In this document: positions 2,108 to 48,504 of the stretch, piece by piece
Layout of the letters: each line of letters opens with the position of its first letter
Position numbering within the stretch: the first letter of the stretch is position 1
DNA from: Beroe forskalii
Taxonomy: Eukaryota > Ctenophora > Nuda > Beroida > Beroidae
Length of the DNA stretch: 64,000 bases
NCBI GenBank assembly: GCA_011033025.1
Contig: WFMF01000009.1
Span: 1,414,853-1,478,852 of the forward strand
Direction of reading: 5' to 3'
Made by a program: the position numbers and the translations under genes
The notes under the pieces: generated by a model
What the model was told of the DNA's origin: nothing
The model's input: only the letters and a program-made list of their open reading frames with translations
Database searches by the model: none

Positions 2108-5100
2108 TTACTTGATGTCACAGAGCAATGCAGCACCACGTAGTGTCCAGTAATCGGGCGACTGGTTTGTCTTCAGTCGGATCTTTGTAATGTAGGTCAA
2201 ATCAGTTCGTTTAGGCTTCTTGTATACCGGACATTCGTAGACCTGAAAAAATATTCGATATGATTCGATGATTGTGAATGTGATGGTATTGTCTGACGTT
2301 GACAGACCCTTTCGAGAATCAGCGCCGCGCGCGGCTGGCGTCAGCGGCTGGCGTCAGCGGGTCATACATCGTACGACAATGATGGTAAGAATATGAATCG
2401 GCACGAAGCGTCGAAGCTGACGAGCTGCGTTAAATTTAAAGTTGTTTTGCGAAAGAGAAAGTATACTCTGTTAGATTGGAAAGAAAACACAGAACATGCC
2501 CCTCCCCAACTTACCCTCTGTGCTTTCTGCTCCTTGGTCATCTCGTTGACAGCGAACATGTGGACGACAGGGAGGGCAGCGAAGAGGACTTTAGGGGCGG
2601 GCTCCATGAGCCGCATTCCTCTCCTGTCCCAACTGGCTCCATCCAAGGACAGGCCGTGGATGTAAACACCGTCTTGTGGTGAACTGAAAACAAGATGGAG
2701 TGAGGAAGCATATTAAGATATTATTACCCTTAACAAGAACAAGCCCATAATTCGCAAACAAAACTGGTAGCATTGCAGACATGTGCCAATTTTGTTCAAT
2801 AAATATGGTACCATTTCGGAATAGGCACAACTGCCAGAAAAATGGTAGGTACCTAAATAGAAAAGCCAAATTTCCCAAACAAAAATAGTGTACCATTTCG
2901 GAAAGTGCCAATCAAAAATGGTATCATTTCTGACAAAGGTCGAAAATACCTAAGAAAAATGGTACCTTTTTATTCTTCAAAAATTGATTTTACCTCCTAG
3001 AAGCCCCATAAACTCCGAAAAATCAAACCCCTATAAGCCAATTTCCATTTTCACTCAGCGTTTTTCGGGGTTGCTTCCCCCCATTCCTTACCAGGATTCC
3101 AAAAGATTACAATATTTGGCACAGTCCGTAATTGTATACTAGAAATATTTGTCGTAAGTAATAGTTAGTACTAAGTTAAGCACCATCCCAAAATGTAGTT
3201 CCACAAGGAAAAGGCCTATTCTGAAAAGCCGCGAATATTTCACCTGGTGACGTCCTCTCTGTTCATTTTGGTCATCTCATTGAACAGTTGGACGGTATCA
3301 AGAGCCCATCCCTTGTGGGCACGAGTGATTTCCTGTCTCATGGCCGTGAGGAAACCCTGAGATGATTGGTAAATTAAAAATGAGAAACATGGCAGTGCGA
3401 AAAAATATCAAAGATGAAAAATAAGAACGGCTTAAGGGAATTAGCGATGGTCAGAATGAATAGAAAAGAATCATGATCCATAATTCCTCGAACAGTTAAA
3501 ACAAAAGTAACGGCTATTCGGACTTCCATCATCAGATAACCGATGTATCAAACCATCAAAGTAGCTGGTTATTTGAGAATATAAATCTTATCAAGGTGCA
3601 CATTGTCCACGACTATGAATCTTGAAAAGTAAAAACATGAAACTGAATTTACCTGTGGGTTGAAGAATCCAGTAAGCCAGAAACATTTCGGCTTCGACTC
3701 AAATATCCACGATCTGAACTGTGTATCACGCTCTAAGAATTCAGTGAACCAGAAACCGAGAGTGGAACTTTCCCAGGAAATCTTGGCCCAGCTACTGGGG
3801 ACTCGAGCATCGAAGATGTTATCAAGGGCATCTTTGAGAGAGTCACTCATAATGATGGTACCATCGATAGCAAGTTTAAGGTCCTTCAGTGTTTGTTTCA
3901 CAACGGCCAATACTTTCTGGATTCGATCAATTTCTTGTCTCAGGAAAATATTCATTGGTTGGAATATACCGTATTTCTGGAGTCTGGCCTTGACTTCATG
4001 AGAAATGAAGTCATCGGGCACCTTCTCCAACATTTCACCTGACAAACGGTAGACAACTTCCTCCCTGGTCTCTCCACCGCCACCTCCTGAGTCTTTGGGC
4101 TGGATGTTGATGATCTTCTCTAACATAGTGTTAGCTGTATTAGTCTGGTAGGTAATGTCAGCATTGGGATGAAGTCCAAATGCTTCTGGTGTATCAACAT
4201 CTGGCAGTTCATTGTTGATATACTCGAGATACTCTTCAACCTTGTTTAGCTGTGGAATCTTGTAGCCCTTGTAGAAACAGAAAGTATTGCCGAAGATGTT
4301 GTCACTCATCCAAGCTCTGGTGTAGGTGTTGAGGAGAATCTTGTCAAAGTCATCAGTAACACGGCCACCGTATTGGACTTCTGCAATCATGTACCTAACA
4401 CATACCCAGGATACGCCCTTCTTTGGATCCATATCATCAAGATGAGTTTGGACAAATGTCAGACTTGCACTCAGATCAGACTGATTGAACTCGTAAGGGA
4501 TATTCCATCCAAGAGGACCGAACTTCCTTCTCTCTTGCACTGTGGTGTGTAGGAAGGCAAGGTTATACAACATAGGTTTCCATTGGAATGTGCTGGAGAT
4601 ATCTAGTTGTTCCTGAGTTGTGTTATTGTAAGTTCTGGAAAGTCCAGCTTTGATACCTTGAGGAGGCTCATTAGTGAACTTGATACTGTTTTGCAAGAAA
4701 TTAATTGGGAATTTGGGGTGAGGTTCAGTTGTTACCCATAGCCTAAAGTTAGGAGTTATAGACTCTGTTGTCAAGACTGTCTCTAATACTTCATCCATGA
4801 AGCTCAGACCCAAATGACAGTTCTGCAGTAAGACCCATCCACCATCTTGGAAACTCTGTGCAAGAATTCTTCTGGATGGAATCTCCTGACCTTGCCCCAT
4901 AGAGATGTCTCGGCATTCAGTCTTCTTTTTCTTTGCAAAACCTTTGATGGCCTCAGTTGGGTCAGAACCCATGCTGAGGAAGCAAACAAGCGGGGTCCTG
5001 TTAGTACTTTCTTCGTACATCAGTGGGTAGTTCAAAATTACAGCTTCAGTAAATTTCTTTCCAGCACTGTTGGTGATGTAATGTCTAGACTGAGGAATAA

Positions 5101-8100
5101 TACGGTCAGGACACCATGATCTTATGAGCAGAAGTTTGCTGAAAGACTCATCAGGACTGAACTTGTAATCAGGAATTTCATTGTCTTCAGGAGCCTCTGT
5201 ATCAAACCATGCCTTCCAGGCCTTTTCATTCCTTGCAACCTGACCCAGAATTTGGGAGAATCTTGTAAGCTTACTGAGTTGAACCAAATTCAACCAGGTC
5301 ATATCAGTAATCCATTTCTTAGGTTTTGGTTCAACAGAGTTCAAATCCAAAGCTGCACCACCTTTGAAGAATGTCTGGAAGTCCTCTTTGCGCAGTCTTC
5401 CGCTGTCCAAATCAATGTTCAATGCAAGCAGCATAGTGAACAAGAACCTGTCCTCCTCATACAGGCCTTTAACAGTGTACTTGAATATATGGAATGTCAA
5501 GAAGTTGATAATTGATTTGATACGCTTTGCTGTGATTGGTGACTTGTCTGAACGAGCCAAACTGATATCAAATTCATTCAAGAACTGGTTAAGAGAAGTT
5601 TGGTACATGGTGTTGACCATACTCATACTGACAATCAAGAAGTAAAGAATACTTCCTCTTGTAGCAACTGGTCGGTATTCCTCTCTGGCTGTGTTGATCT
5701 TAATCTCTGTTTCAGCAGCAATGGTCAACTTTTCACTGACTTCTTGGGCAGTTGTTTTTGTTACTTGCAATACAACAATTAGATCCTCATCCTCTACCAG
5801 TGATCCTTCAGTCTCAGTCAAACGTTTCAGTAAGTTGTCTTCAAGATCTTGCATACGTTTTTTGTTAGCATTGACCTCTTCCATGAGTTTATTACGCTCA
5901 CTTTCAAGTTCTGCCTTTTCAGTCAAGATGACACGACCGAGCAACTGATCTTCAAGACCCCTTTGAGTGACAGTGAAGTCAATGATGCTAGTCCTAGCAG
6001 AAATTTCTGGAGTGTAGACAGGGTTAGGTAGCTTAGTGGTGATATACATACGGAAACCATCCATAACATCACACTCTTTGTCACCAACCTTCACTTTGTA
6101 TGAAGAACCTTGTTTAATGAAGTTCTTCTCGAGGACATTATCCAAAGCAGGATCAAGTTCTTCCTCAACATCCTCTAGCAAGAATGGTCTACCCAGAGAT
6201 AAGGCATCCTCAAGATGAGTTCTGAAGTACTTGTTATTCAGTTGAGAAACCGTCAGTTCGTTGTCACCCTCCTTTTTCTTTATCCATATTGTAGCTTGGC
6301 CTTGTGGATCAATAAGAAGTGGGAACCTAGTCGACTTTGTAACAATTATACCGTTCTGAATGGATAAGTTATCAGTTGGTAAACCTTGAAGTACCCACTC
6401 ACCAGCAGTTGCATTATCAACCAACATTTTAATTAGATCAAGGTCTTCGGAGAAGGGAATCTTTTTCTTCATCATCATAGTCTTCCAATTCTTAACCAAA
6501 AGATCTCGGAATTCTTGATTGAATGGACCAGAATAAGACAAAAATCCAGTGCACACAAGGGCATCACCAACCAATCGTCTGATTTGGTCACTAAATCGTA
6601 GGCCTGCCTCTGTCCAACGTGTCTTTTCGCCAGCAAGACCTTCAATAAGAGCAGTAGCATTAGTCATTTTTCGCCTTGTTGCTTCTGCATCATCGAGAAG
6701 CATTTGTTTATGCGACACAGCACCATCAAACTTAGCTTGCACAACGTCCAACTCCCTTTGCTTTTCATCCAACTGACCTTGGGCTTCAGCTAAATCACTA
6801 TTTGCAATTGTTAGCCGGCCTTCTTGAACAGCAAGATTTGCTTTCAATGGCAAGACTTCCTTGTTGATACCGAAGAAGAAGGACATAGCTCTTGTCCAAC
6901 TGAGCAAACCAGCAACATTTCCAGAAACAGCTTTAGCTCTCTCCAAGTTGAAATCATCTGCTGCAAGGTAAGGTTCGAGTAATTCAACAACTTCGTCATT
7001 GATTGTATCCTTGGGGAAATTAAGAAGGTTAAACAGGAACTTTGTGTCACCCATCAATTTGAGAGCCTCACCCCAACTCGTTCCAATGAAACCAGGTCTA
7101 TCTGGATCCATTACAACTTTCCCAACAGTCTTTTGGAATAACAATATGACACAGTCCATAATTCGCATAATGAGATGGGGAGGTTTACCAAGCTTTCGCA
7201 CAGTGGCAATATCAGCAGCTTTGATTGTACTCAGAGCTCTTTCAGCTTCGAGCAACGCTGGTTCTGCAGCAGCTAACTTTGTGGTTGCAACAGCTTTGTC
7301 CTTGGAAATTTCGTCGACAATAGCTTGTGCTTTATCTTTCACCTTTTGAACTGATGCCTTGACTTTCTCAGCAGCAGTGGCCGAAACTGTCACCTCTTGC
7401 AGTACAACGTCCGCTTCTTTGCTTGCAACAGCAAGATCTTTCTCTTTGACAACCAACATCTCACTGAGTTCTGCTACACTTTGACTTGCTTCAAGAAGTT
7501 TCGCTAGACCAGTTTCCATCCTTGATGCTAGCATCTTTATTTCTGCGTATTTGACTGAATAGAAACCTTTGAATTCCGCTAAGAAGGACAAGTAAGATTT
7601 GGGTGTTACATGAGTCTGTCTTCTGAATCTGTTGAAGTACTCAATACAGGTTTCAGCAACTCCATCTTGGATCACACCCATACTGGTAATGATGCTCTGT
7701 TTTACATCTTCTGGTGTATCCATGGTGTAACTACTAAGGAAATGGTTGGATACTTCCACAAGAGCTTCTTTGGGCCATCTCATGAACCAATCCATGGTAC
7801 AACCTGAGAAAAGTCCTGGGAATTTGAGAGACCTCGTTCTGAATTTCTCTCCAACAGGAGAGAAACATAAAACAACGTGTAAGTTCTCTTTTACACGATT
7901 TATGAAGAATTCATACAAATTTTCGTTTGTGGGCGGGTGTTTTGGCATAGCTTTCTTCATAATTGGACCAAGTTCACCAAGAATCTCATCAATTTCATCA
8001 CGCTGGAACATACCAGAAACTTCACCTGATGCAATGACGTTATTCATAGATTCTAGGAAGTTCTCATCTTTGATTTCATTATCTGTGAAAATGAATGTTA

Positions 8101-11100
8101 CTCCCTTACCCTTAACACCAGCTGTTCTGTACAGAACCTTTAAGTCATCAAGAAGATTTTGTGCATTGTAAGTTCTCGAAAGAATAACTTGGAAGATGTC
8201 ATAACCTGCAATATATGATGCCAGTCTGGTTAAGGACTGTTTTCCTGAGCCACCCACACCAACCAACATAGCATGTCCAATGGGCATGGACAAAATACGT
8301 GATATACGGGCTAGATGGACTGCAGCATCTTTGAAGAATACAAGATCCATTCCAGCACCCCTAACAGTTTCATTATACAGTTCTTGGTAAGACCTCAACC
8401 TATTGGGCAACTGTTCTCTAACCTCAATGGACTCGTAGATCTTTGGAGCATCGAAATCAGCATCATCTGGTTCCTCCCCAGTTGGCTCAGGTGCATCTCT
8501 CATAAAATCAGCAAAGAATATATCCCGATGAATTTTTTCGGCAAATTCTGGGCCAAGACCGGCAGTTTCCCCTACTATCTCAACACAGGCACTGTGCAAC
8601 CAGTCACAGTCCTTCATGTTAGTGAACCTATCGGCTATGACTCGCTGAACTTCACAATACCAGAGAGATACAACATCATGACCTGTAGTCACAACATCAC
8701 CTTGAACTTTCAGAATTCCTTTCCAAATCCTGCTCAGATCTCGTAAGTTGAAAATGTAATGGAATTTAGCAGGGGTTGGTAAAAGCTTGTTTTTCACAGT
8801 CTGCCACAACATTCGAGTAACTGGAACAAGTTTTAAAACTGTCTCACACACCTCAGGGGTGAATTCTCTCTCAGGGACGAAATATCCACCGCCAATTGTG
8901 TTGAAGATTAGATCCATACTGGTGTTCGAAGGAAGAGTACAATTAAATGTACAGAACTGTCGTTTGAGACGCTCAGGGATGTCATTTCTACCACCACCAG
9001 GATGACTCATAGCAGCCATAACCTGTACATCAGCAATGTTAGTGTAATCACCAGGTTTATCCAGATTGTAAAATCCACGATTTTCCATTAGCTGTCGGAC
9101 AATTTCGTTGGTGATTTGATCTCCCCACTCATTGATGATTGGCATGTTCACGTCATCAATGAAAACAGTCATCTTCTTACCAGCTGGTGGACCATATGTG
9201 CTACCCATACGCTTATCAACATAACTCTCAACAGCAGCCTGGAAAAGACCTGGAGTTGTTGCAGAAGAGAAGTTAAGGGCCTTATAAAGATGCACTTCAG
9301 GATCATATTTGGAGCAATATGCCTTGATGATTACAGTTTTTGCAGTACCACTTTCTCCGATAAGTAGTACACCTTTTTTGAATTGCTTGGCAATGGTGTC
9401 AACCAAAAATTCGGTACATGTGTTATCCACATTGGGGACAAGAATTCCATCATAATTTGGTATGCTATCAACAGGATATTCATACTTTACTACTCTGCTG
9501 ATCCAGTGAGCCCATTCACCATCATCATTAACATAATACTCGAATATTGTCTCACCGGGTTTGTATTTGGGAAGGTTAAGGCCACCCTTTTCTTCTAAGA
9601 ATGCTTGCATTTTAGCTCTGTCTTCCAATTCCAGAATAGCTCCAAGACTCCACATCAAAGCAAACACAAAGAAGCGTTCCATATGAGTTGGCGTGGGTTG
9701 TTTGGCAGCATCAACTGGTGGAAGCAAGCCATTTATAATTTCTATGAACTGTGCAACCAGCATTGATTCCATAATCTCCATTTTCGGTAACAATGCTGTC
9801 AAATAGAGGCGATATGCTTCAGGGAAATAGTCATTGATCAATGGCCTGAGCGAATCAGCCTGCATAGGTGGAAGTCTTGCGAGCCATGCTTCAGTGAGAG
9901 GTGCATAGTCCAAAACAGAAGCAGACATGAATACCATACCGTTTCTAGAGACAGTGGCTGGTGATGCATTGTCAATGTTGTGCACTTCGAAGCAAATCTT
10001 ACAGTTAGGAGACATAGGAATCCTGTCACCATTAGCAAGAGTGAGCGTCTTGTTGTCATCAAGGACAGAGTTGAGATTTTCAATCCAGATAGCATCGACA
10101 GGTCCATCAAGCAGCAGCCAAACATAGTCTGTCTTCTTTATTTTCAGAGTCTTTCTCCAAAGAGTAGAGAAGATTCCATCAGTCCAGTCATTGGTGGCAA
10201 CATCAAGACGACCAAACATCTGAGGGGCAGTGATAGCTTTGGGATTCATCCTCATTTCTCTGTGTGGCATACCCAACTCACTCATTGCTCTGTGAAGAGT
10301 ATTGATACATTTAGTTTTACCTGCACCAGATGGTCCAAGTGTCATCATACCGTGACGTACATTTTGAGTTTCATAAAGCTGGATAACTTTGAGAATCCAT
10401 GGTGGATGGTTTACTAATCCCAACTCGGTGACCTTTTCAGCGATAAAGCCTTCCAGTTCAGGGTAACCAACAGTTGGCAGAAGGAGGGCTGGGAACAGAT
10501 CGTCGATTAGGGACAAGAAAAGTGGTTCATCTTCATCAACAAGTTTTGATAAGTTCATGTCTCTCATAACTTTCATCATGATTGAGTCTTCAGACATCTC
10601 TTTGTTGGCTCTCATGAAGGCACCCATAGTCCTCAGCACAGATAGAATATTCCTCAACCCGAAATCGTAATGGACCTGTTTTGACAGCTGTTCCTCACAA
10701 AGTTTGTATAAAGTGAAGAACTTACCAGACAGCACAATATTGGTGACGAAACCAACTGAAGCAAGTTTCACCCTCATGATGATCTGACGATCTGGAACCA
10801 TCATAGCAACTGTCCTGAAATTGACCTTCAGGTTCTCAGGCAATTCTTGACGACCTGCATAACCAGGGTTCATCGTCAAGAAAAGACCAAATTCGGGATC
10901 CATGTTAACAACATCACCATCAGTAAAGATGAATTCCCTCTTGCGTTCCTTCTTACAGCCCAAAACAATAGCAATTTGCTGAGCAGCTACAGAAAGTACA
11001 GGAAGTTCAACTCGGTTGAACTCATCAAAGCAACCCCAACAACCAGATTGGGCAAGACCTTTGTAAATACGACCCAGACCACGGAAATCCATCTGATCAG

Positions 11101-14100
11101 AGCAGTTGAACACAACAACGAACTTACCAAGACATCGACCCATATCCTTGGTTGACTCTGTCTTTCCTGTTCCAGCTGGGCCAGCAGGTGCAGCACCCAA
11201 ACTCATGTTTAGTGCCTGGGCAATGGAGATGTAACACCTATCAGTTAGGGGCGTGATGACAAGACGATCTGTACAACCAAGGAACTCATTCTGATATGAG
11301 AAATCAACATTTGTAATGGAAATCAAGCACATATCATTGTCATCATCGAAGTAGAATCTACTCTGTTTGGTCCATTCGAAGTCATTGACAGACTTAACAT
11401 GAAGGGTTACTAGATCGTGGAAGATATCACGCTGATGCACGTGGATGGTGATGTAAGTCTCGAACTTTGTACGCTCCATCTTTGTCAAGTCCCTGGTAGT
11501 AACTTCGATAAGCAAGTTAAGCATGTCCACGAATTTCTGATCAGTGGTCGCCATAATTTTCTTATCACTTCGTGCCATACTCATTGCAACCTCAGCCTCT
11601 TTGGACCACAGCATTTGGAGGCCCAGAAGTCCAACTTGCGCTTGATAGTTGAAGAGGAACTCAACCAACTTGAAGTTGGGGTCTGCTAATGTCATGCTAG
11701 CTGTACGGATGACAAAGTGGACAGATTCTTGGACAGATTTAAGGAGGCTACTGAGCCAGTTCTCCACATTACCCTGTGCCATTACCGAAGTCACAAGATC
11801 AACTGTTTCGCCTTCTTGGGATATGATCTCTAAGATTTTATCATAAACTTTCTCGTCAAATGTAACGTTTTTAACATTGTCAAATACAGACAAGAGATGA
11901 TTCTGGATGGTGTGTGAGTCACTAGCTTGACCAAGGATCTCAAGCAAAGCGGGATCAGATACGAAGAAGAATCGAGGGAACAGAAGTCTTTTCTTCTCAA
12001 GATATCCAGTCAGCGACTTCTGACAGATCTCAAGTTGTTCCAGAAGATGAGGCAGCAGTTGGGCCAACATTTCATCACCAACACAACACTGAACGACATT
12101 GGGATTCTCATGGGCATAAGCCATAATTTTAGCCCAACTCTTGTCAATATTCTGGAATCTCTTTGCTTCCTGTGGCAGCTGCTTAGCAATGTCACCACCA
12201 ACAAATACAGCCTCTAGATACACCCATAAGTTCTGCACAATCAGCCACTGCTCAATGATCTCAGTACTTCCTGTGAGATCAGCAACCCATTTTTGGATGT
12301 TCTTTTTGAATGGAGCATTGTAACGGTTACTCAGAAGAGAACCAAGGATCATGAGAGAATCTTCCATAAAGGACACAATCTCAGCAGTTTCGTTACCCTT
12401 CAAGAGCATTTCACCCCTGTTTTTGAACAGCCCAAAGGAGAACTCTTGAGTACTCCAGTCAGCTGTCAGCTGTTTGAGCTTCCCTTCGATGTCACGCTCC
12501 TTGACGGCTGCCACACAGATATCCTCAATATCTTCTTTGTATGTTAGTAGAGGAGCTTTCATGATATCTCTTAGTTGGAAGGCTTCATTTTCAATATCAA
12601 ATTTGTATTTGGTCAGATCTTCAATACGAGCCCAATGCCGCTTTTCCATGGATTTGTTGGACATCATTTCAAGCAGGGGACAAGACTCACTGAAATCATC
12701 AATCTTTTGCTTCAGATCCAAGAATGCCTCCCAGTCTTTCAGCCCCTTCGGTAACTTTCTGCATTTGTTTTGGAAATCAGCAAGCTCACTCATGATCTGT
12801 TCAATATCAACTTCATGCCAGAGAATGTCATAGTAACCATTTACTGTATTGATGACATCATTGTACAAACCATACAACTTCTGAAGGAGAGAAAGTTCTC
12901 GCTTAACTTTATGAAGTTCTGGGTAGTCAGTTACACTCAGACCAAAGAGTTCCTCGCCACCAGAATATGTTTCGTACTTTTGCCACATGTCATCAAATTT
13001 GACTTGGAAGATGCTGACCCTCTCAGATGCCTCTTGAGGTGAAATTCCAACTTCCATAGGTCCCTTGTCGGCATAATCGCCATTAAAACTATCAACTGCA
13101 TCTCTGTAGACTTCGATGTTTGTGACCAAGTCTTTACGGAAACTAGGCTGGATGCTCAGCAAATGATTTTGGACCTTGTGAGACTGGGAGAGAACCTTAG
13201 ACCAACGGTACTGTAGGGTGTCAACTTCCTCAACCTCTTCCCGCAAAACATGACATTCGTGTCGAGATAACATAGAATATGCTTCCTCAACAGGCCCAAT
13301 GGTCATGTCAACTTTAATCTCAGCCTCACGCATTTTGGCAAGAGCAGCCATGGCACTTCGAACATCGTCCAAATCAGTGACTTGTCGGTTGAGCTTCTTG
13401 GACATATCGTTAATGAACTCAATGAGTTCAGTCATGTCTGCCTTTACTCTCTGATTAAGACGAGTTGCATATAGATTTTTCCAGTTGTCACATTCTGCCT
13501 TCAGTGACATTCGCAGAGGCTCACTCTTAAGAACGATAGCACCAACTTGTTTATCAGCCGACAGCTCAATGATTTGCAAAGCTTCCTTCTCATAGAATGT
13601 GATTTTTGCCTCGAACTCCGACAGAGTTGGGTCAATTTCAAGGAAGGTGGCCAGATCCTTTTCTTTATCATCCTTCCACAGATAGTTGTAATGAGAAAAG
13701 CTTTGAAGTGCTGCATTGATCTCAACAATAGTGCTATTGACTATGGTGTTCAATATTATCACAACTTTTTGGATATCCTTATGCTCACTGATAGCTTTCC
13801 AGAATATTTTGCTCCTGCCGTCCTCCGGGTCAGGTTTTCCCCAGTCTTTAAGACCTTGGCATGCTTGAAGGAGCATCTGAACAGCTTTATTCAAACAGCC
13901 TTGAATGTCGTCTAAACTGGGTCTCATGATAGTCTGAGGTATAGCAAGGGCAATGTCAGCACAGAATAGAGGTGGCTTAGGCTCCTGGCTTTCTCGGGAA
14001 GATTTCATGAATTGGTTGGCAGTAGAAATAATGAATCTTCTTCTTATAGCATCAAGTGAATTCCTTGTGCATTTGACAAGAGCTTCTGTGCTTCGACTAT

Positions 14101-17100
14101 GGAAATGTTGAACAACATTAAAGATGCAGCAAGGCAGACATTCAGTACATCGGGCTTGATTCTTTCCCTCAGGCCTGAGACACTTGTACTGACCTTCCAA
14201 TCCAATCAGATCTTGTTGGCTGTAGTTTTGCTTCAAATAGTTGATGATTTGATGCAGGGACAGCTCAATAAGCTCCATTTGTCGAGCAAGCTTTATGCCA
14301 CTTTCCTTAGTTTCCCTCTCGAACATGTCAAGGAACTCATCTACCTGATACACATTGTCACTGGGAATTTCAACAAGGGGAGATGCGGAGATAGCGTTCA
14401 ATACACTCTCAAGCTGAACGTCATGCATGTCTCTAACACGGTTCATGACCTTCTCAAGGTTATTCAGCTCATTGTAGATGGTCTTGGTGTAGCTGTCAAG
14501 GTTCATGGAAGTCCATGACATGATGGACTTTCCTGGTTTGATGGCATCATCAACTCGTGCTATGATGGGACCCATTGCCCTGAGGAATATCTTTGGTATC
14601 TTTTCAATAAGCATATCATAGTCACTCAGAATAGTTTCCAGTCGTGTCCAGTTATGCTTCATGGTGTAAAGGTTAACTCGGAGTGATTTAGCAGCATCGG
14701 GGACCTCTAAAGAGTTTCATGAACTCATGAATAATTGTTAATTAAGATCCAAGTTAATTTGATTAAGTAAATTCATGAGATCCCAACATCTGATGAGAAT
14801 TAAATATGAATTTGATTGGGATAATGTGTATTACAATACTGCAACACAAATCGTAGCATAAATCAATCTTACAAAAGTACAAAGTTAGAACTTACCTCTA
14901 AGTCCATAAGGAGCATTATTCTTGTTTCTCGTAGAAGCTCCCAAACTTGTGGATCCATGTTCACATACAGTTTCTTCGTGTCAGGGTGTTCAACCAACAG
15001 TGAGGACTTCAGACCAGTAATAGCTTTCTCTACGGCTTGAGTCCATCCTTGGTGATACAGCACCTGAAAATTGAAATTTAAGTTTCAAAATATGATGTTA
15101 ATTTTGGAAAATACAGTTGATAAACAGATAATACACACGAATGGATTCATATAGCGAAAACCGGAAAATGATATCAACAGAGGCATCCCTTATCAAACTC
15201 AGAGCTTCATTCTACAAAATGTCAAAATATGAAGATCAATGATCATATTTTCAACATTGACCTCGAATTCAACGAGTACGGCAGCCATTCGGTTGAAGTT
15301 CTTGACGATCTTCTTTCCTTCAGGTGTGTTTAGGATCTCCTTTTTAGAACCGAGCGCCTGCATGGGTTTGTCGATGACTTCGTAAAGTTGTCGAGCCCAA
15401 GCAATCCTTCCAGAGATGGGGGGCATGTTTCGAGGAATGGGTGGGTTTTCTTTCTGCTTCTGATACTGCTTCCTGATTACTTCAAGGTCCTGAAGGGAGA
15501 GTCTGTAAGCATGAAGTAAATAACACTAGTTCTAGAACAACAAACAATGGTCAGAAACAACAAAAAAACGCCCGCTCACAGTGAGTCCAATTATTCCATT
15601 TAAAAATATAATTTCTATGATTACAAGGCATTTTGTGGGCAGTTTTGACAAAATCAATCTTCACTTACTTTCCGTATGATATGAGGCATTTGTACCACTT
15701 TTCTTCCATATCAAGTTGAAGCTGGGGCATGTCCTCGAATTTCTTCAACGCCAATATGGATTTCCAGGTCTGCAAATGGAATCGTGGTTTGTCACGAATG
15801 GGATTTTGCCCGTTTAAAATCGAAAATTTGCAGGGATGGGTGAATAAACCTGACTGCGCTTGCTCCCATAAAAGAAAAAAAAAAAGAGAAAAAGAATTTC
15901 AGTAAATTTGTTGTAATATCAATGTTTAATTTGGACTCAAAGGGTTTTTAGATAACAAATAACTAACTAACCATGGTTTGCTTTTCAACGCATCCCTCCA
16001 TGAATTTCTGCAGTTTTGTCTGCATTAGATCAACAGCTCTAAGGAAGTCATCATAGTCAACTTCAAACTCCTGCTTCCTGTGGTCCAGAATGTCGTAGTT
16101 TTTCTTTTTTGCCATACCAACGACAGCCTGCCACTGTTTGTTATGAGACTCCAACCCCTCGACCTTAGACACAGTCAAGATGCTGAACCTATCCATGGTT
16201 TGCAGCATATCTTGGACCTTTTCCAATCGACGGGCGAAAATCTCAAACTTTCCGAAAATGTACTTCTCACTGAAATCAAACTGCTTGTCACTTGGACTCT
16301 CTTTGAGTTTGTCTTTGGTGCGTCTGAAGCAGGCTTGGTATTCCTGGTTGAGATGAAGACAGTCGTAGATTCTCTGAAGAGCCACATCTCGTGGCAGTTC
16401 CCAAATCTTGCTTACATCTTGAAGGATATACGTCTTACAAGCACTCACCATCTGGAAATGAAAGATGATATTGAAAGTGAAATCACTAAATTATATATGT
16501 TAATAACAAAAAATAAGGAACCGCCAATTGCCATGTTTTAAACAACTTATTCCTCAAAAATTCTCAAAATTTAACTTGACTTGAAAGTAGGGTTATGTTT
16601 CACAAAAGTTCGAGGACTGAGGAGTTAGGATGAATTTATTGAATACTATGGACCTACATTCAGATAATTAACCTGATTGGTGACTTTCACAAAGAGACTG
16701 GTCATCCTTTCAGAGGTGTTGTAGTATCTGGAGATGGAGTTTATCATGCGGATAGCATTGATCAGACCAGGAATGCTATCCAGCATCTCCACTGGGCTGG
16801 ATCTCTTCAAGGGCTTACAGAACTTCATCAGGGTGTAGAGGTACTTCACGTTGTCTTTTGCCTCATTGGCAGCATCTGTGATCCGAGCGTCCAGAGTTTT
16901 CCACTGTTTTATAATCTTGCTCTTAGCAGCGAAGAGAATGCCGATGGTTGTCTTACAAGGCTGAGACTTGATCTGGTCCAGTAGTCTGCAATGGATGCGG
17001 AACATGTTAGAGCCTAAATTTTCTGATGGCTGCATACTGACGAAATACCGACGAAAAGTAAGCGGGGCGTTATGATAAAGAATCAATCTCCCCAGTAAAT

Positions 17101-20100: not shown

Positions 20101-22878
20101 ATTGTAAGCATATACGCGAAAAGTGTCAGGATTGTAAGCATATATGTGGCGGCACCATGGTGGCAACCTGACCCCAACAACCTATCAAAACTATCGATTC
20201 AATGCCCCTAAGACATATTTGTATCATCAAAAAGTCAATCTAGTCCTAACTCTGGCCTCTGGTAATATGCTTACAATCCTGACACTTTTGTTCCGATTTT
20301 GTTCCATTTTTGTTCCAAAATCGGCGAAAGACTGACTCGTACGATCATGCGATGTTTCCACGAAATTGGAACAAGATTAATTTTGATTTTTGGGAAAAAG
20401 TGCTGAAATTAATTTATGTGCACCAGTGGATAGAAAAATATTGAAATATAATCGTAAGTCCAATGTATATAGAAGTCTTTACAATTGCATCTATCTTAAA
20501 GATCAAACAGCTTTGGTTCATGTCGGCCTATTTTGAAATAGGTATGTCAACATTTTTTACCTATTTTGAAATATGTGTCTTCATTTTGTCCCTATATTGT
20601 TTCAAGTTTATTCCAATTGCACAAAAACATTAACCCTATGTTTAATGTTCATATACGACTGGTGTCAAGATGATGTAATGGTAGCAAAATGGTTTAAGAA
20701 TGAAATTGTCACTGATGAGTGATGTCAGGAAAAAGTAGTGTCAGGAACATCTATCGGAAAACTATCATAAATCTCCAAACATAAGAGAACATTAGCAAAA
20801 CTTACGTCCGAATCGAGGAGTTGATCTTCAACAATTTCCGTCCCAAGTTGGCAATAATCAGCAATCTTATCGAACAACCATTTGTGTCGGGAATCAATCT
20901 GCGACGGTGGCATTAGGTTCACTTACAAATGGATTTCTTTGAGTCAACTAATATCAACTGCTGACTTGTGGAGGGAAATTCCCCCTCACTATCTCTCAAA
21001 TCACTATCGAAAATACGGATACACAAGATGAGTGAGTGAGAAAGTAGCTTATGATACGACCGGAGAGGTACAAACCGAACATTCGCTTGCCTCCTGGAGT
21101 GATCTCATTAATTAGAACGACGTGTCAAAAGACAGATCCATGGGTTTTAGTCAGCACAATCTCATTAAACCTCACTTGGGACACACTACTTGTCACGATG
21201 AGAAAAACTTTCATGAGAACATTTTGTATGTGTATCATAAACATTTGAAATTGTTTTCAGGGACAGGTTATTAATCTAGGGATATGCATAAACATTAGGG
21301 CTAATAGTATGCTAAATAGTAAATACTTGCCTGTTGCCTCTTTATGTCACGGCTTGCTTTGCTGATCTTCATCAAATCCTTCACTACGTCTCCCGTGATC
21401 ACTGATGGCCGCTTTTGAAATTATAATAATTAGTATTCATTAATCATATACGTATATTTATTTAGGTCATAATTTGGTTTGTAATTTAGGGATCATGCAA
21501 GCAATAAGCTTTTGGTTTTAAGAAACAAAATGACGTCGCTATTTAAGCAGAACGCTTTCTCGGGTGAATAATTTTCTTTATTCTCTTCTTAGCTCAGCGA
21601 AGTGAAACGAACTTTTTCTAAAATTCAATTAATTAATTTCGTCGAATCTTCAACGTCATCAGGTTATCTCAAATTTGATTGTATAAAGTAGTAGCAGGCA
21701 AGTGGAAACCTAGATCTCTGATCTAGATAACAGTCTGGGTACGTGCATTATGCATAGGACTGTAGGAAGTTTACTGCTAGCAAGCGTGAAGCACAATAAT
21801 TGTATTATTTTTATTCCCAATCAAATGCAAGAAATTTTAATCTCCTTCGGCAAACAATTTTGACTTTATATTTGTTTCACTTTACTTTACGTACTTCATT
21901 TTGCACAGATCCAACCCTTGCCTTAAACCACCACCCTCCAACACTGACCTACCGTCCAAGTGAGTTAAATAACACAGTAACTTGGTAACTGTTGCTAAGC
22001 AACCCATAAAATACAGTAATTATACGTCAGTAAATTCAGTGACCTGGAGGTACACAGCTCACATATATAACAAAGTTACAATGATAAAACTACGCAGGAA
22101 GTCTTTATAGAACTTTTAACTTTATACTGGAATTATGCATTCAACATTTTATTCAAGTTCACAACATAATTACATATTGATAATAGGTTTCAGGTGTGTC
22201 TAGGGCACAAAGTTTGGTTGAACTGATTGTGACAGTTCAAAAAAGGTTCAAAGGATTCCAAAAGTTTTACTTAGATTCAAATGGAACCTACACTATACCG
22301 ACAACTATTCAAGACCTTCTTGCAAGCGGTACCCCGTCCAGGCCACTTTTGTTTCCAGGCTCTGAACAGGCTGAGACGGGTTTTTGACAATTCACAGTCA
22401 GGTTTTGGGCGGGTTTACATAAGTATTTGAACCTTTTACTCTTTTAACACGATTTTTTTGTGACAGGATTTGAACAGGTTTGACAATTTTAAAACTAACG
22501 TTTTCAGAGGCCCAGTCGGGACACGTTTTCAACAGGTTTGTGACAGGTTTTGCACATGTTCTATGCTTTTTGGACAGGATTTGACGGGGTACCGCCAGTC
22601 AAGAGGCCTCAGTTTTAGTTCCAGTTTGAGTTCCATGCATTACAATTTACACAACAAACGAATTCATGACAATAGTACAGTTCGATTCTGAATGAAAATA
22701 TTCTATACAAATATAACTTTTTTAGTGGCAATACATGCAACTTTCCAAATTGCCCAACAACAGAGATTGGTGTCTAACTCACATTCTTACTGACAACAGA
22801 TAGCCTGGTGGAGCTGGTTTCCTGATGAGGTACTTTATTAAAAGAAACATTCTTACGATATCCGTCTTTTCCTGACAT
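2108..22878 (-). CDS. DNAH5: Axonemal outer-arm dynein heavy chain (DNAH5/DNAH8 type), copy 1, 16 exons
   Basis: This is the force-generating ATPase heavy chain of ciliary outer dynein arms. Exons inferred from frame, GT/AG sites and phase (5' to 3' on the minus strand): 22878-22783, 21411-21331, 20898-20806, 18491-18285, 18072-17858, 17665-17583, 17309-17144, 16985-16673, 16451-15972, 15769-15669, 15502-15262, 15063-14896, 14704-3653, 3356-3244, 2683-2515, 2242-2108. All phases agree and the sum gives about 4,570 residues, normal for this family. The N-terminal exons carry the tail ([15 protein letters not shown] and [14 protein letters not shown] motifs, typical of DNAH5/8). The C-terminus ends [12 protein letters not shown]. 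The family is very sure; DNAH5 versus DNAH8 cannot be decided because these are vertebrate co-orthologues. The first exon (start [10 protein letters not shown]) is the least certain part. It was chosen because it resembles the first exons of copy 2 and ends in phase 0 at a GTGAGT donor. Intron 2 has a GC donor (CAG|GCAAGT). Confidence 0.9.
2684..3243 (-). other. Intron 14 of dynein copy 1 with short repeats
   Basis: The intron between 3244 and 2683 contains several copies of a short motif, GTACCATTTCGGAA or AAAAATGGTACC, in both orientations. It looks like small decayed repeat units. There is no coding potential. Confidence 0.5.
3653..14704 (-). CDS. DNAH5: Giant 11,052-bp exon 13 of dynein copy 1: linker, six-AAA motor, stalk, C-terminal domain
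   Basis: This exon is 3,684 codons with no stop and no intron. It opens [11 protein letters not shown] after a TTTAGAG acceptor and closes GFFNPQ before GTAAATTC. P-loops in order: AAA1 [11 protein letters not shown] (near base 11,180, residue ~1,920), AAA2 [10 protein letters not shown] (~2,205), AAA3 GESGTAKT (~2,528) and AAA4 GVGGSGKQS (~2,894). AAA1 also has the Walker-B region [10 protein letters not shown]. The two stalk coiled coils flank the microtubule-binding domain around bases 7,250-6,900. AAA5, AAA6 and the start of the C-terminal domain follow. AAA3 has A in place of the usual G (GxxGxAKT), which dyneins tolerate. No truncation or frameshift is seen, so the motor looks catalytically complete. 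In vertebrates this region is split over dozens of exons; here it is one. Confidence 0.95.
18655..18812. repeat. Minisatellite in intron 3 of dynein copy 1
   Basis: Units of about 10-11 bp with a higher-order period of about 21 bp, of the form GTGCATTTAGGTTGCGTTTTGG, are repeated across the block. The block lies directly beside the inverted-repeat element at 18835. Confidence 0.6.
18835..19269. mobile_element. 435-bp non-autonomous TIR element (MITE)
   Basis: The left end TACCTTATTGGCCTTTATTT (18835 onward) matches the reverse complement of the right end (19242-19269) over about 28 bp with a few mismatches. The interior has more copies of TTTTTTAACCGGCCC in both orientations. There is no transposase frame. 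It is inserted in intron 3 of dynein copy 1. Confidence 0.7.
19396..20312. repeat. Direct repeat pair plus inverted third copy (foldback cluster)
   Basis: Copy A (about 19396-19714) and copy B (about 19735-20075) are direct repeats of about 330 bp sharing AAGTGTCAGGATTnTAAGCA, TTTTGATAGGTTGTTAGGG and TGGTGCCGCCAC. A third, shorter copy (20143-20312) is inverted relative to them, so B and C could pair as a long hairpin. The unit AAAAGTGTCAGGATTGTAAG is also duplicated at the junctions. It lies within intron 3 of dynein copy 1. Confidence 0.75.
21062..21182. other. 121-bp perfectly conserved intronic element, copy 1
   Basis: GGAGAGGTACAAACCGAACA (21062) through CACTTGGGAC (21182) is identical base for base to 49350-49470 in the equivalent intron of dynein copy 2. 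It sits 164 bp upstream of exon 3 here and 136 bp upstream of exon 3 there. Flanking intron sequence is only loosely alignable. The plus strand is open for 40 codons. The minus strand is open apart from one TGA. No tRNA, 5S or snoRNA hallmark was recognised. Confidence 0.8.
22326..22595. mobile_element. Small TIR element (270 bp)
   Basis: GCGGTACCCCGTC at 22326-22338 is the exact reverse complement of GACGGGGTACCGC at 22583-22595. The interior has repeated GACAGGnTTTGAACAGG units. No coding sequence was found. It lies in intron 1 of dynein copy 1. Confidence 0.5.
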
Positions 22879-36870: not shown

Positions 36871-38436
36871 GCGGAATGTAGGCTGAATAGTAAGTAGATG
36901 ATTTTGAACCTTGTGAGATTGGGAGAGGACCTTTGACCACTGATATTGCAGAGTGTCAACTTCTTCAGCTTCTTCTCTTACCACTTGACATTCGTGCCGA
37001 GATAACATGGCATATGCTTCCTCAACTGGTCCAATAGTCATGTCTACCTTTATTTCTGCTTCACGCATTTTTGAGAGGGCAGCCATGGCACTTCGAACAT
37101 CATCTAAATCAGCAACTTTTCGGTTCAGCTTCTTGGACATATCGTTTATAAACTCTACAAGCTCCTTCATATCTTTCTTGGCTTTCTCGTTAAGACAGGT
37201 GGCATAGAGATTCTTCCAATTATCGCATTCATCTTTTAGTGCCATCCTTAAAGGCTCACTCTTTAGAAGTATAGCACCAACTTGTTTATCAGCTGACAGT
37301 TCAGAAATTTTCAGAGTTTCCTTCTCATAGAATGTCAGCTTTGCTTCAAACTCCGAAAGAGTTGGGTCAATTTCCAAGAAGGCATTGAGTGCTTCTTCCT
37401 TGTCATCTTTCCACAGATAATTATAGCCAGAAAAACTCTGCAGTGCAGCATTGATCTCAACAATGGTGCTATTGACTATGGTGTTCAAGATTATCACAAC
37501 TTTTTGGATATCCTTATGCTCACTAATGGCTTTCCAGAATATTTTGTTCCTTCCATCCTCTGGGTCAGGTTTTCCCCAGTCCTTAAGACCTTGGCATGCT
37601 TGAAGGAGCATCTGAACAGCTTTATTCAAAGAGCCTTGAATGTCGTCTAAACTGGGTCTCATGATAGTCTGAGGTATAGCAAGGGCTATATCAGCACAGA
37701 ATAGAGGTGGCTTAGGCTCCTGGCTATCCTTGGAAGATCTGAATTGATTTGCGGTGGAAATGATAAATCTTTTTCTAATGGCGTCGAGCGAATTTCTGGT
37801 AGATTTAACGAGAGCTTCTGTGGATCGACTGTGGAAATGTTGGTAAACATTGAAAAGACAGCAGGGTAGACATTCCGAACATCGAGTTTGATTTTTACCT
37901 TCAGGCCTGAGACACTTATACTGGCCTTCCAAACCAACAAGATCCTGTTCTCCGTAGTTCTTCTTCAAGAATTTGACAATCTGGTGTACGGAATGCTCGA
38001 TTGTCTCCATCTGCCGTGCCATCTTAAGACCACATTCTTTGGTATCCCTCTCAAAGATATCGAGGAACTCATCAACAGTGTACACATTGTCAGAAGGAAT
38101 TTCTACAAGTGGGGAGGAAGCGATATTAGACAAGACACTTTCAAGCTGAACGTCATGCATGTCTCGAACTCGTCTCATGATCTTTTCAAGGTTATCCATT
38201 TCATCATAGATGTTCTTGGTGTAGTTGTCAAGGTTCATGGAGGTCCATGACATGATGGACTTTCCTGGTTTGATGGCATCATCAACTCGTGCTATGATGG
38301 GACCCATAGCCCTGAGGAATATCTTTGGTATCTTTTCAATAAGCATATCGTAGTCACTCAGAATAGTTTCCAGTCGTGTCCAGTTATGCTTCATGGTGTA
38401 AAGGTTAACTCGCAGTGATTTAGCCGCTTCAGGAAC
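36871..38436 (-). CDS. Exon 13 remnant of dynein copy 2
   Basis: The reading frame starts [11 protein letters not shown] after a TTCAG acceptor. It matches the first ~522 codons of the copy 1 giant exon at high identity ([20 protein letters not shown] is identical). After QPTFR it runs about 50 codons into antisense of the neighbouring PHD fragment before a stop. There are no internal stops or frameshifts. Confidence 0.85.
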
Positions 38437-39340
38437 CTGAATCGGAAATGATTGTCACTACAGGCATAAAATGACAAATATGACCAAAAATATCAAAATT
38501 TCAACATAGTCGAGTACTAGGGTCTCTACCAGACTGAATTGCAAATTTTCAGTATTAACGAAGATTTTTGAGTGCGTCATCTAGCCTGTTTTTTGATTGT
38601 TTTCAGGTGCTCCGCTGTATGGCGAATTCTACATCTTCTAGGCCATGTTTCTATGGTCCGATTTCACTATTCAGGACATATTCAGGGCCTTCAGGTCAAA
38701 AACTAAAGAATAGGATGATTGGTTTACATCCGGGGCAAATTTCTGTACAATTTAACCCTGCATTATTGATAATGAGTAGAGCTAAAAAGTGGCAAATTTA
38801 ACAGTTCAGTAACCGATAATGCAGTACACAGCTAGCACACACGTTTCTGATGTTAAGAAAATTAGTCAAAATCTTAAAAATGGTTGTGTCGTGTACGGAA
38901 GGGTCTGAACTAATAGCCTAACACGATAACCGAAGGTTTCAAGTTATTTAAATGTTTTATTTCTGGGCAATTGCCAGAGCAAAAGTTGCAACTGTCCTAT
39001 CTGGAGCATATCCTTTTTGAGGTCAAAGCACCCCTTAGGATTATTTCATCTCGACGAAAACCAGTCCATTTGTTCTGGTTAGCATCCACGTGTGCTGCAA
39101 CAGCCTCATTTTGATTATCTCACACTTCTTGGGTCCGTTGATAGCGCGTTTTCTTTGACAACGAAATTTGTGGTCAGAAATTTGAATCTGCTGTAGAATG
39201 GTCTAAGAAAACTTAGTTATCGGTAAAACCCGATTATCATAATCCAAAAATGTCTGAAAAAACGAATATCACATAAAATAGTCACTCCCGACAGCCGTTT
39301 CTCCAGAAAATTGCAAGTGACAATCTTTTCCGAACGCACT
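38437..39340. other. Unrelated DNA replacing exon 12 of dynein copy 2
   Basis: In copy 1 the equivalent interval is 557 bp and carries exon 12. Here 904 bp carry nothing like it. A short motif, GCTGTATGGCnAATT then ACATCTTCTA (38615 onward), recurs near 62,208, suggesting dispersed repeat sequence. Insertion with deletion is the simplest reading. Confidence 0.6.
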
Positions 39341-40087
39341 ATAGTTTTTGATGGTTTTCTTTCCCTCTGAGGTCGTGAGTATCTGTCTTTTCTCACCGAG
39401 AGCCTGCATGGGTTTGTCGATGACTTCGTAAAGTTGTCGAGCCCAAGCAATCCTTCCAGAGATGGGGGGCATGTTTCGAGGAATGGGTGGGTTTTCTTTC
39501 TGCTTCTGATACTGCTTTCTGATCACATCAAGGTCTCTGAAAAGAGAGTCAGTCAGCATAATAAATAGTTGCAAAAACTTATCACGCAATACCTTCTATA
39601 CGACTCTTTGTACAATCTACATTCTACATAGGTATTTTTATATACAAATCACAGTGCAGAAATGCTGCAATCTGATGAACTCATTTCAGCAATGTAAGTG
39701 ATATAAAATAAAGAATATCATGCATTTTGTAAGATTCATCCAATAAGAGCTTCTCCGACAAAAGCACCAATCAACTAGCAATCTGAATAAAATCCTCTGT
39801 GCATTCAGTGACCCTCCACTTACTTTGCGTAAGATTGGAGACATTTGTACCACTTTTCTTCCATCTCAAGTTGGAGCTGGGGCATGTCCTCGAATTTCTT
39901 CAGCACCATTATGGCTTTCCAGGTCTGCAAGGTTAAATAAAAATCTCAATTAATTGCAGTTCATGATGGAAATCCTGAGTTTCAAACAGAAATTATCAAT
40001 TAAAACATTGCGACTTCATAATCCTATAACAATGAACCCAATGTAGTTTTTACCGGAGTAACCTTCGATTAGTAAAATATTTAGAGT

Positions 40088-40657
40088 TTATTCATTGTTA
40101 CTCAGGAAAAAGAAGTGTGAACTCACCGTGGATTGCTTCTCGACGCACCCCTCCATGAATTTCTGCAGCTTTGTTTGCAGAAGGTCAACGGCTCTAAGGA
40201 AGTCATCATAGTCAACTTCAAACTCCTGCTTTCTGTGGTCCAGAATGTCGTAATTTTTCTTTTTTGCCATACCAACGACAGCCTGCCACTGTTTGTTATG
40301 AGACTCCAACCCCTCCACCCTTGAACTTCCCAAGATGCTGAACCTATCCATGGTTTGCAGCATATCTTGGACCTTTTCCAATCGACGGGCGAAGATCTCA
40401 AACTTTCCGAAAATGTACTTCTCACTGAAATCAAACTGTTTGTCACTTGGACTCTCTCGCAGTTTTTCTTTAGTGCGTCGGAAACAGTCTTGGTATTCAT
40501 TGTTGAGATGAAGACAGTCGTAGATTCTCTGGAGAGCCACATCTCGTGGCAGTTCCCAAATCTTGCTAACATCTTGAAGGATGTACGTCTTACAAGCTCC
40601 CACCATCTGAAGAGGGTGATTGGTAATATATTCTTGGAGTCGTGAAGTCATAAACAA
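40088..40657 (-). CDS. Exon 9 of dynein copy 2
   Basis: The exon proper is 40606-40127 (480 bp), identical in length to exon 9 of copy 1 (16451-15972). It encodes the tail segment with [20 protein letters not shown] and [20 protein letters not shown]. The acceptor is CTCTTCAG and the donor GTGAGTTC. It is intact. Confidence 0.8.
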   Translation of the reverse strand: MFMTSRLQEYITNHPLQMVGACKTYILQDVSKIWELPRDVALQRIYDCLHLNNEYQDCFRRTKEKLRESPSDKQFDFSEKYIFGKFEIFARRLEKVQDMLQTMDRFSILGSSRVEGLESHNKQWQAVVGMAKKKNYDILDHRKQEFEVDYDDFLRAVDLLQTKLQKFMEGCVEKQSTVSSHFFFLSNNE

Positions 40658-42396
40658 AGTCTAGATTTGATCGACATGGTTCACGAAGTTTAATGCTGAG
40701 TAATTCAATGGAAAAATCGATTGGAATCAAGATAGAATCGAGTAAATCAAGTAAAAGTGAAATTTTTTAACAGATCATAAAAAACCTGATTGGTGACTTT
40801 TACGAAGAGACTGGTCATCCTTTCAGAGGTGTTGTAGTATCTGGAGATGGAGTTTATCATGCGGATAGCATTGATCAGACCGGGAATGCTATCCAGCATC
40901 TCCACTGGACTGGATCTCTTCAAGGGCTTACAGAACTTCATCAGGGTGTAGAGGTACTTCACGTTGTCCTTTGCCTCATTGGCAGCATCTGTGATTCGAG
41001 CGTCCAGAGTTTTCCAACGGGTAATAATCTTGCTTTTAGCAGCAAATAGGATACCGATGGTTGTCTTACATGGCTGAGACTTGATCTGGTCTAGTAACCT
41101 GAAAACATCTTAATTTATTTTCCATCCAGAAATTGGCTCTGGTTGCATCAAATCTCACTATCCTAGAACTTATTGATACCACAAAATTGAAGTACCTAGC
41201 ATTAATACGGTTAAACGATGATTCAAGGATTTCAGAGGGCAGTTGACTCACGCATTGAAGCTGGCCATCCTTTCCTTCCAGTACACAAGTTCAGAGTTAG
41301 GTCCCGTGTCATCGGCTTCTTTCCTCATTTGCTCTGACTGCGTTAGCACTTGTTCGATTTGCTTGCACCAGCCAGCAACAATGCCCTCAAGTTGCGTTAC
41401 AAGGTCAAAGTTACCCGCTGAAATGAGATATCTAATGCAGGGGGGAGGCAATGGACACATGCAGAAGGAAAGAAATTCAAAAATAAAAAATAATTAATTT
41501 TGTGCAAATTTTTTTGCAATAGTGCATTTGCAATTAATGATGATGAAATTTACAAGAAGAACCTGTAGTTTGGTATTGTTGGGGTGTTGTGATTCCCTTG
41601 ATAGGCAAGTCATCAGGCATTATGAGCTTCACACTGCAGGGGGCACTAAAATGTTAGCGTTAGTTTCAATTCAGTAATTCGCTGTTAGAGTAGTGCAAAA
41701 CTCTGATTCGGACCCAAACACTTTTAGGGGCATTAATAATTTGGTAAGTTTTCAAGAGTGTCCATTGTACAAACACACAAATAATGATGAAATTAAAAAA
41801 GTTATGACATACCTTTCAGACAGGTTAGATTTAGCAGACTCAAGAAGCTTAGAAAAGTCCTCAATTCCGAGGATGAAGTTAGCCACATGAGGGTTTTTGA
41901 CGCCCTCCTGTGTCAGCTTGCCCCAGTTGGTGTTCTTCATCAGCATGGGGACTATGAGGTGGTCGAGGGTGGTCCTAACAGCTGACAGGATGTCACCGTC
42001 TGTCGCCTCCACTGCTCCGAAGTGCACCTGGAAATAGAGGATTAGAGGGTTCAGAGTGGATGTCATTGTCTGCAGAATAAGCAACACTACAATAAGTTGT
42101 AAGACATCGTGTAGTATAACCAATATTATGTACAATGCACATACAATATGCATTGATTGATGATGAAGGGATTGATGAAGACACGCATTTCAAAGAACGC
42201 GCAATTTACTTTTCACAGAATTCCGAAAATTCCTACGCGTTTTATCGTTCGATCCACGTGCACACATATATAGACATATCATAAAAAGACACGCAGAAGA
42301 AGCAGCTAAGCATGTCAGCCGTGTCCTCCCCTACCCCCCAAGTCGCGGCCCCCTGTCTCCTGCCCTCTTCAACACCCCTAACATCCCATCCCATAG

Positions 42397-42484
42397 GACC
42401 TGATCCTCGACCTCATGCCGTCCCTCGAGGCCCTGGAGCGGCCCGACCACAACCTCATGATGAGCGACCTCTTCAACAACCAGG
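42397..42484 (+). other. Isolated GC-rich putative exon on the plus strand
   Basis: A strong pyrimidine tract and CCCATAG acceptor precede an open 29-codon segment (DLILDLMPSLEALERP then DHNLMMSDLFNNQ). It ends at a GTATGAG donor-like site. Almost every codon ends in G or C, unlike the surrounding AT-rich intron. No partner exon is recognisable nearby. It could be one exon of a plus-strand gene or a captured exon fragment. Confidence 0.35.
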
Positions 42485-43439
42485 GTATGAGGGCGCACAA
42501 TTCAAATAATCATGAGATTATCACTCTGAAATATCGAATCGCGCAGTACCATGCATACATATATTATGAGGATATGCTCATGTTGGATCAGTCTCACACA
42601 AGTTCAAATGGCGGACGGTGGTTTTGTGGAAATTTCAGATACGGATCTCAGAAGTGGTGACACCTTTGTAACACGTAGACAGTTAATTTGAACGGTACTT
42701 CAAGTGGAAATGGCAAGGAGAGAGTGTCATTGTAATGATAAAGCTTTTTAATCAAATGAATAGAAATTATATGAACTAATCATGTGGTATTGGCGTTGAT
42801 TTTCATTAGATAATACAAATTTAGGCTTTAGCCATATTTACAATAAATTTTTAAATCAAAACAAATTACAATTTCATTTCAAGACAAAAATTTTTTCAAA
42901 TAACGACAGCTAAGTTTTGCATGAACTTCTGCATAATAATCATTATAAGAATGATTTTCATTGACTAGTTCTTTGTTTGACTCCTTTGATCCTTTCCCTA
43001 GAAAGATTGAAGAAAGGAAAAAAATAATTTAAAACGTTAGAAATTACAACGGTCCGAAGGCGGCAAGCAAACAAGCAACTAATGCGTTCTTCAGAATCGC
43101 CCTCGTAGAAAAGAATTGTTACAATTAAATGAAAGTCTTATCTAATAAGATGTATATGAAAAAAGCACTGCTGTGTCGATTTTTCATTCCAAAGATTACG
43201 AAATGAGACACGAGAAAAGGAAGAGACTGCGAACCAGTTATCTTGTAACGCATTTGTAAATGTCCTTCTCCGTCTACTGCGATGTGGTTCTGTGCGAATC
43301 AGCAGTTGGCAAAATCAAAAAGGAGTGATTAATGGGTATTTTCGCGCCTAGACTCAAGAGTTGAAGTTTGAAGTTCTTACTTTTTCTTTGTGCGGTTCGC
43401 ACTGAAACCTCGCTGATCCCCTTACCCTCCTCTACCTCA

Positions 43440-43930
43440 GTCTCCTCCTCCTCCCCCTCATTTACCTCCTCCTCCTCCTTCCCCTTCTCCCCCTCCTCCT
43501 CCTCCTCAGTCTCCTCCTCCTCCTCAGTCTCCTCCTCCTTCCCCTCATCCTCAGTCTCCTCCTCCTTCCCCTCATCCTCCTCCTCCTCCTCCTCCTCCTT
43601 CCCCTCATCCTCCTCCTCATCCTCCTACTCCTCCTCCTTCCCCTCATCCTCCTCCTCCTTCCCCTCATCCTCCTCCTCATCCTCCTACTCCTCCTCCTTC
43701 CCCTCATCCTCCTCCCCCTCCTCCTCCTCCTCCTCCTTATCCTCCTCCTCCTCCTTCCCCTCATCCTCCTCCCCCTCCTCCTCCTCCTCCTCCTTATCCT
43801 CCTCCTCCTCCTTCCCCTCATCCTCCTCTCCTCCTCCTCCTCCTCCTCCTCCTCCCTCCCCTCCTCCTCCTCATCCTCCTCCTCCTCCTCCTCCTCAGTC
43901 TCCTCCTCCTTCCCCTCTCCCTCCTTCTCC
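43440..43930. repeat. Long (TCC)n-type microsatellite, coding on the minus strand
   Basis: About 490 bp of TCC/TCA/CCC triplet-like repeats, with higher-order duplications of 30-60 bp. Read on the minus strand it forms the Glu-rich then Arg-rich tail of the XK-like protein. Confidence 0.9.
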
Positions 43931-46900: not shown

Positions 46901-46998
46901 GAAATAGAACTTTGCTCAATATGAGCATTCTCGAATTTTATCACAGCAATCAGTTCTCTTTGACATTCAGAAATATTCCCTTGTTCTTCCATTTCCAT
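43462..46998 (-). CDS. XK-related-like multi-pass membrane protein, two exons, frameshift in exon 1
   Basis: Exon 2 (45660-43462) follows a TCCTCCCCAG acceptor, joins exon 1 in phase 0 and encodes about 730 residues. Roughly ten hydrophobic segments are visible, including FNYADTITDVVTTIDMF near the start, ENLPQFIIQIINI in the first half and LVGLGMEALHLIALMVLIY near the end. The layout and the E-x-L-P-Q motif recall XK-related proteins (scramblase family), but this is not certain. Exon 1 (46998-46365, donor CAG|GTAAGA) adds an acidic cytoplasmic-type N-terminus. In this sequence it is split between two frames by a one-base difference inside a short tandem repeat near 46,600. The C-terminal ~130 residues are a simple-sequence Glu then Arg tail. 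The gene sits inside intron 4 of dynein copy 2, same strand, and uses much more GC-rich codons than the dynein exons. Confidence 0.6.
46573..46645 (-). repeat. Two-unit tandem repeat carrying the XK-like exon 1 frameshift
   Basis: Two units containing ACCTTTCCAGGGTTCAAGTG follow each other. The second has one extra base (ACGGGTACC against AGGGGACC). The extra base puts a TGA in the upstream frame and opens the downstream frame. Confidence 0.6.
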
Positions 46999-48499: not shown

Positions 48500-48504
48500 T
48501 CATT

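Follow-up and report, generated by a model that had tools for sequence, protein, structure and literature searches.

Probable recent short-tract gene conversion at an identical intron block shared by an old tandem pair of DNAH5-like dynein genes

A DNAH5-like axonemal dynein heavy-chain gene is present as an old tandem pair in the window, i.e. the whole 64,000-nucleotide stretch of Beroe forskalii DNA analysed here. The copies are both on the minus strand, one with a motor and one partial. In the intron upstream of exon 3, both contain the same block of 121 bp. How does a stretch of intron come to be identical at every base in two genes that have otherwise diverged so far? The perfect match reported in the initial annotation is borne out by direct comparison: 121 of 121 bases are the same, with zero bases of extension at either end. 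The block is the longest exact match between the 11-27 kb and 34-58 kb parts of the window, the runner-up being a 116-bp match within an exon. The chance of 121 straight matches is 2e-12 at 80% identity; the block is a real, non-random signal, and chance is excluded as the source of its identity. The features on which the analysis rests are collected in Table 1.

Table 1. Positions of the features of the two dynein copies in the window.
Feature	Copy	Positions	Strand	Basis or remark
121-bp identical block	1	21062..21182	.	intron upstream of exon 3
121-bp identical block	2	49350..49470	.	direct comparison with copy 1
Adjacent conserved flank	1	20993..21059	.	alignment, 54/62 aligned bases identical
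Adjacent conserved flank	2	49282..49347	.	alignment to copy 1 flank
Exon 3	1	20806..20898	-	25/93 bases differ from copy 2
Exon 3	2	49122..49214	-	compared with copy 1
116-bp identical tract in coding exon 11	1	15356..15471	-	exact match and third-paralog control
116-bp identical tract in coding exon 11	2	39402..39517	-	exact match
Near-identical tract in exon 12 (1 difference in 104)	1 and 2	13848..13951 = 37583-37686	-	third-paralog control
3715-aa open frame including exon 12	1	3569..14716	-	linker, AAA motor, stalk and C-terminal dynein domains
Probable exon 2	1	21331..21411	-	GC donor, CAG/GCAAGT (slash, exon end); inferred
Extent of copy 2	2	36871..49470	-	tail exons 3-12; exon 12 incomplete, a tail exon of copy 1 not seen

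The two copies differ in extent. Among solved structures, the best match of exons 9 and 12 of copy 1 is DNAH5. Copy 2 can be aligned from the block as far as 36871, midway through exon 12; past this break, a short unrelated tail is followed by a donor-like site near 36740. A search with the remaining 3188 residues of copy 1 found no second motor within the window, and copy 2 appears as a partial, tail-only copy. Its ten aligned exons contain no stop and dN is lower than dS in all eight exons where both can be estimated, and it may plausibly make a protein. Copy 1 possesses a further tail exon at about 14896-15063, resembling a stretch of a paralog on contig C281, of which no counterpart was seen by eye in three frames between exons 11 and 12 of copy 2. 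With this exon lacking, it is less certain that copy 2 functions as a gene and would require a regulatory element. At the other end, the probable exon 2 of copy 1 is backed by its reading frame and by a weak but continuous alignment to DNAH5, while no convincing homologue was found upstream of copy 2. A candidate near 57.0 kb was rejected: stops delimit it, and a clear donor is missing.

Outside a few tracts, the copies are an old pair. The initial annotation had estimated by eye that exon 3 differs at roughly 30% of positions, close to the measured 27%, and 11 of the 23 codons that encode the same amino acid there differ as well. With exon edges trimmed, dS is saturated and not estimable in exons 3 and 5 and amounts to 1.55 in exon 4. 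It falls to 0.75 for exon 6 and to 0.29-0.34 across exons 7-11, and is 0.90 for exon 12. Within exon 11, the 116-bp tract shows no difference, as against 22 of 73 sites in the remainder of the exon (19/55 on one side, 3/18 on the other). It comprises 35 same-amino-acid codons in a row without a synonymous difference (exact p 1.1e-4 within the exon; 0.0011 when multiplied by the ten exons), and exon 12 has a run of 31 (exact p 3.6e-4 within the exon); when the 939 codons of the ten exons are pooled, the runs have p values of 0.0015 and 0.0060, respectively, in tests which assume that differences fall randomly along the exon and which were applied to two tracts noticed beforehand. Among the other eight exons, the longest silent run reaches p 0.016 in exon 6 and 0.15 to 0.90 in the rest.

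Third paralogs provide the control for these exon tracts. Over the exon 11 tract, the C281 paralog exhibits synonymous differences at 16 of 21 same-amino-acid codons (18 of 23 for the whole aligned stretch around it), compared with none between copies 1 and 2, and a paralog on contig C248 at 9 of 14. Over the exon 12 tract, the C281 paralog differs in this way at 9 of 11 codons and the C248 paralog at 10 of 12. Since the silent sites of both tracts vary in other paralogs, they are free to change over longer times, and codon constraint is not the cause of the identity in exon 11. The identity of copies 1 and 2 over the two exon tracts looks recent.

The surroundings of the block are asymmetric. 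Lying upstream of exon 3, it is separated from it by 163 bp in copy 1 and 135 bp in copy 2. The initial annotation held that the flanking intron barely aligns, which is right for the high-coordinate side and wrong for the other. Past 21182 and 49470, similarity never rises above that of shuffled sequences (p 0.91 and 0.73), and nothing beyond shuffles was found out to 2.8 kb in one copy versus 3.5 kb in the other. This edge of the block is thus the limit of the detectable shared segment, and may correspond to a duplication breakpoint. On the low-coordinate side, a flank of 67 bp matches at 87% of aligned bases, a value from a local alignment, which selects the best part; its score is 51, and the shuffles reach no more than 24 and 22. 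The block stands apart from its own flank, with 0 of 121 mismatches versus 8 of 62 (p 1.3e-4).

This flank is conserved above the background of the gene pair, as measured between the paralogs only, for the other intron stretches cannot be aligned. Ten comparisons were made over nine introns, with stretches trimmed at the exon edges and leaving out ~2.7 kb of the long intron between exons 4 and 5 of copy 2, and nine of the ten scored within shuffles. The exception is the exon 11-12 intron, with a 42-bp non-collinear match (p 0.005), in a comparison whose copy 1 side includes the extra tail exon. Even the introns beside the most similar exons (exons 7-10, dS ~0.3; 15966-17322 versus 40121-41430, minus strand) are not alignable over the stretches compared. 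Homogenisation therefore appears confined to exons for exons 7-10, and conversion is not broadly homogenising introns. A small conserved intron stretch is also seen, beyond the parts compared, at the exon 6 acceptor, where some 24 bases are identical in both copies (17667-17690, minus strand; position approximate).

The reading that accounts best for these observations, and which is considered reasonably likely, is that the exact identity of the block results from recent short-tract gene conversion within a probably constrained intron element of ~190 bp in a partial dynein duplicate. Interlocus gene conversion would recently have copied ~120 bp between the genes, wiping out all differences. 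Purifying selection on a ~190-bp non-coding element (20993-21182) would have kept this site accessible to conversion, whereas most of the other intron sequence would have drifted past recognition. The element would probably be cis-regulatory, a role suggested by its position near the 5' end of the gene, and a shared enhancer or promoter function is possible. It would sit at the edge of the duplicated segment and, copy 2 having no detectable exon 2, may represent promoter-side sequence brought along by the partial duplication. Local gene conversion, one of the origins proposed initially, gains support from the second, near-equal-length tract in an exon that is not codon-constrained: as the two genes share this other perfect tract of comparable length, the 121-bp intron tract fits the same process. 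The case for conversion of the intron block is one of analogy with the exon tracts and compares two block sequences only. Conversion by itself would probably not suffice, given a flank that is conserved next to unalignable introns and a diverged exon 3. On the sequence evidence, the simplest reading is that flank and block together would be constrained non-coding DNA, in which conversion then cleared the differences of the block.

Published work is consistent with such a history. According to the relevant passages of PMC3924818, interlocus tracts in yeast have mean lengths from ~50 up to several hundred bp; for rodents the mean is ~100 bp in most data sets and above 1 kb in one. The length of the block lies within this range. 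The same passages describe conversion as acting mainly above 80% identity and at a low rate below it. In the part of the review PMC3924832 that deals with this interplay, purifying selection maintains high identity and conversion then removes the differences, introns included, which matches the history proposed for the block.

Other origins of the identity have to be weighed against this combination of conversion and constraint. The suggestion that a young repeat had been inserted twice at the same place is ruled out by copy number: only two copies of the block were found in the 216-Mb genome, in searches at E thresholds of 0.001 and of 10, and its 25-mer core, allowing up to three mismatches, recovers the same two places only. 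The same tool returned 294 matches for a control repeat taken from the neighbouring intron. This control (19391-20300, in the exon 3-4 intron of copy 1) belongs to a repeat family, with copies of ~150-300 bp in both direct and inverted orientation; the best other full-length copy is 93% identical. A non-coding RNA gene or an exon hidden within the intron, both raised by the initial annotation, have next to no probability. The plus strand of the block does hold one open frame of 40 codons and the best minus frame is interrupted by a single stop, as first described, and the former would suit an exon. Against this, no Pfam family matched in the two frames tried and the block edges show no splice dinucleotides common to both copies, on which grounds a coding exon was dropped. 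As regards a known or strongly structured RNA, Rfam returned no match overlapping the block up to E 10 and none at gathering score within the window, the tRNA search on the block was negative, and folding of either strand was no more stable than that of shuffles. Searches for short motifs turned up nothing specific that would point to regulatory function: no ciliary X-box occurs in the block, two loose matches lying outside it near copy 1 and none near copy 2. The internal repeated 10-mer TTAATGAGAT, taken as a spaced pair, has 8 genome-wide matches, two of which are this block, compared with 35 for a reversed-letter control, and with one mismatch it occurs 11 times within the window versus a mean of 9.88, i.e. 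at chance; it is not informative as a motif signal.

The remaining alternatives keep the block as shared DNA and differ in what held it identical. It might be an ultraconserved regulatory element, with almost all of its bases needed and without any recent conversion, which is an unlikely explanation. The 87% identical non-coding flank that the block adjoins, unlike the bulk of the other introns, speaks for it. However, per-site conservation above ~97.5% would be needed (the chance of 121/121 is 0.047 at 97.5%) in a pair of paralogs whose dS is at least 1.55 in exons 3-5, and the 116-bp exon tract, with silent sites that vary in other paralogs, would be left unexplained. The strong constraint invoked initially is therefore retained for the neighbourhood of the block, as its flank indicates, but not as a requirement for exact identity. 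The opposite extreme, neutral conversion of a block devoid of function, with the alignable flank as the remnant of an older and longer tract, is quite unlikely. Active conversion is indeed indicated by the exon tracts, and the flank could be such an older tract, yet exon 3, beyond it, has diverged at silent codons as well as overall, and the introns adjoining the most similar exons carry no remnants of this kind. A very improbable source is the assembly itself, if reads of one copy overwrote the consensus of the other during polishing over about a read length, which the sizes of 116 and 121 bp resemble for short reads. Polishing alters sequence mainly where reads of the other copy already map well, whereas the coding DNA beside the exon 11 tract is as diverged as described above.

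Conversion acting on a probably constrained element can be compared with two known systems. As in interlocus (ectopic) conversion between tandem paralogs, the tracts are short and perfect, with abrupt edges, in otherwise diverged paralogs. Unlike the usual tracts of this type, the block is intronic although the bulk of the pair's other introns has diverged, and one of its edges coincides with the end of detectable homology. With conserved non-coding elements of duplicated genes, the block shares its non-coding nature, its presence in two copies only and surroundings that are better conserved than the intron stretches compared elsewhere in the pair. It differs from them, in a comparison made between paralogs only, by its exact identity over 121 bp together with a similar tract in a coding exon of this pair, which points to conversion. 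The process behind the block is most likely an already known one, short-tract gene conversion. If this is true, the locus would be a clear example from nature of conversion at work on a non-coding element amid neighbouring introns that have for the most part diverged past recognition, and would help to tell selection from conversion as the source of perfect identity between paralogs. It also serves as a warning that 100% intron identity in a tandem duplicate need not denote an ultraconserved element.

The more interesting biology may lie in the adjacent tail-only dynein copy. An unlikely scenario would make the element an alternative promoter or enhancer before exon 3, which, moved by the partial duplication, would have provided a headless outer-arm dynein heavy-chain gene, consisting of the tail only, with expression of its own. 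Repeated conversion would since have held it identical in the two genes, leaving the motor and headless versions under common regulation.

Several other features were noted. In the genome at large, a 13.3-kb mitochondrial contig carries an AT-rich, divergent COX1. Within the window, the exon 4-5 intron of copy 2 harbors a 743-residue open frame (43462-45693, minus strand) ending in a long, low-complexity Arg/Glu tail. It presumably resembles an XK-related membrane protein, although no Pfam family matches it at E 0.001. Just downstream of copy 2, a LINE-like element (32353-35990, minus strand) combines a reverse transcriptase frame and a zinc-knuckle frame. Upstream of copy 2, on the opposite strand, a gamma-glutamyltranspeptidase gene is represented by two open frames (57597-59731, plus strand). 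An open frame at 60975-61886 (minus strand) carries a scavenger receptor cysteine-rich domain.
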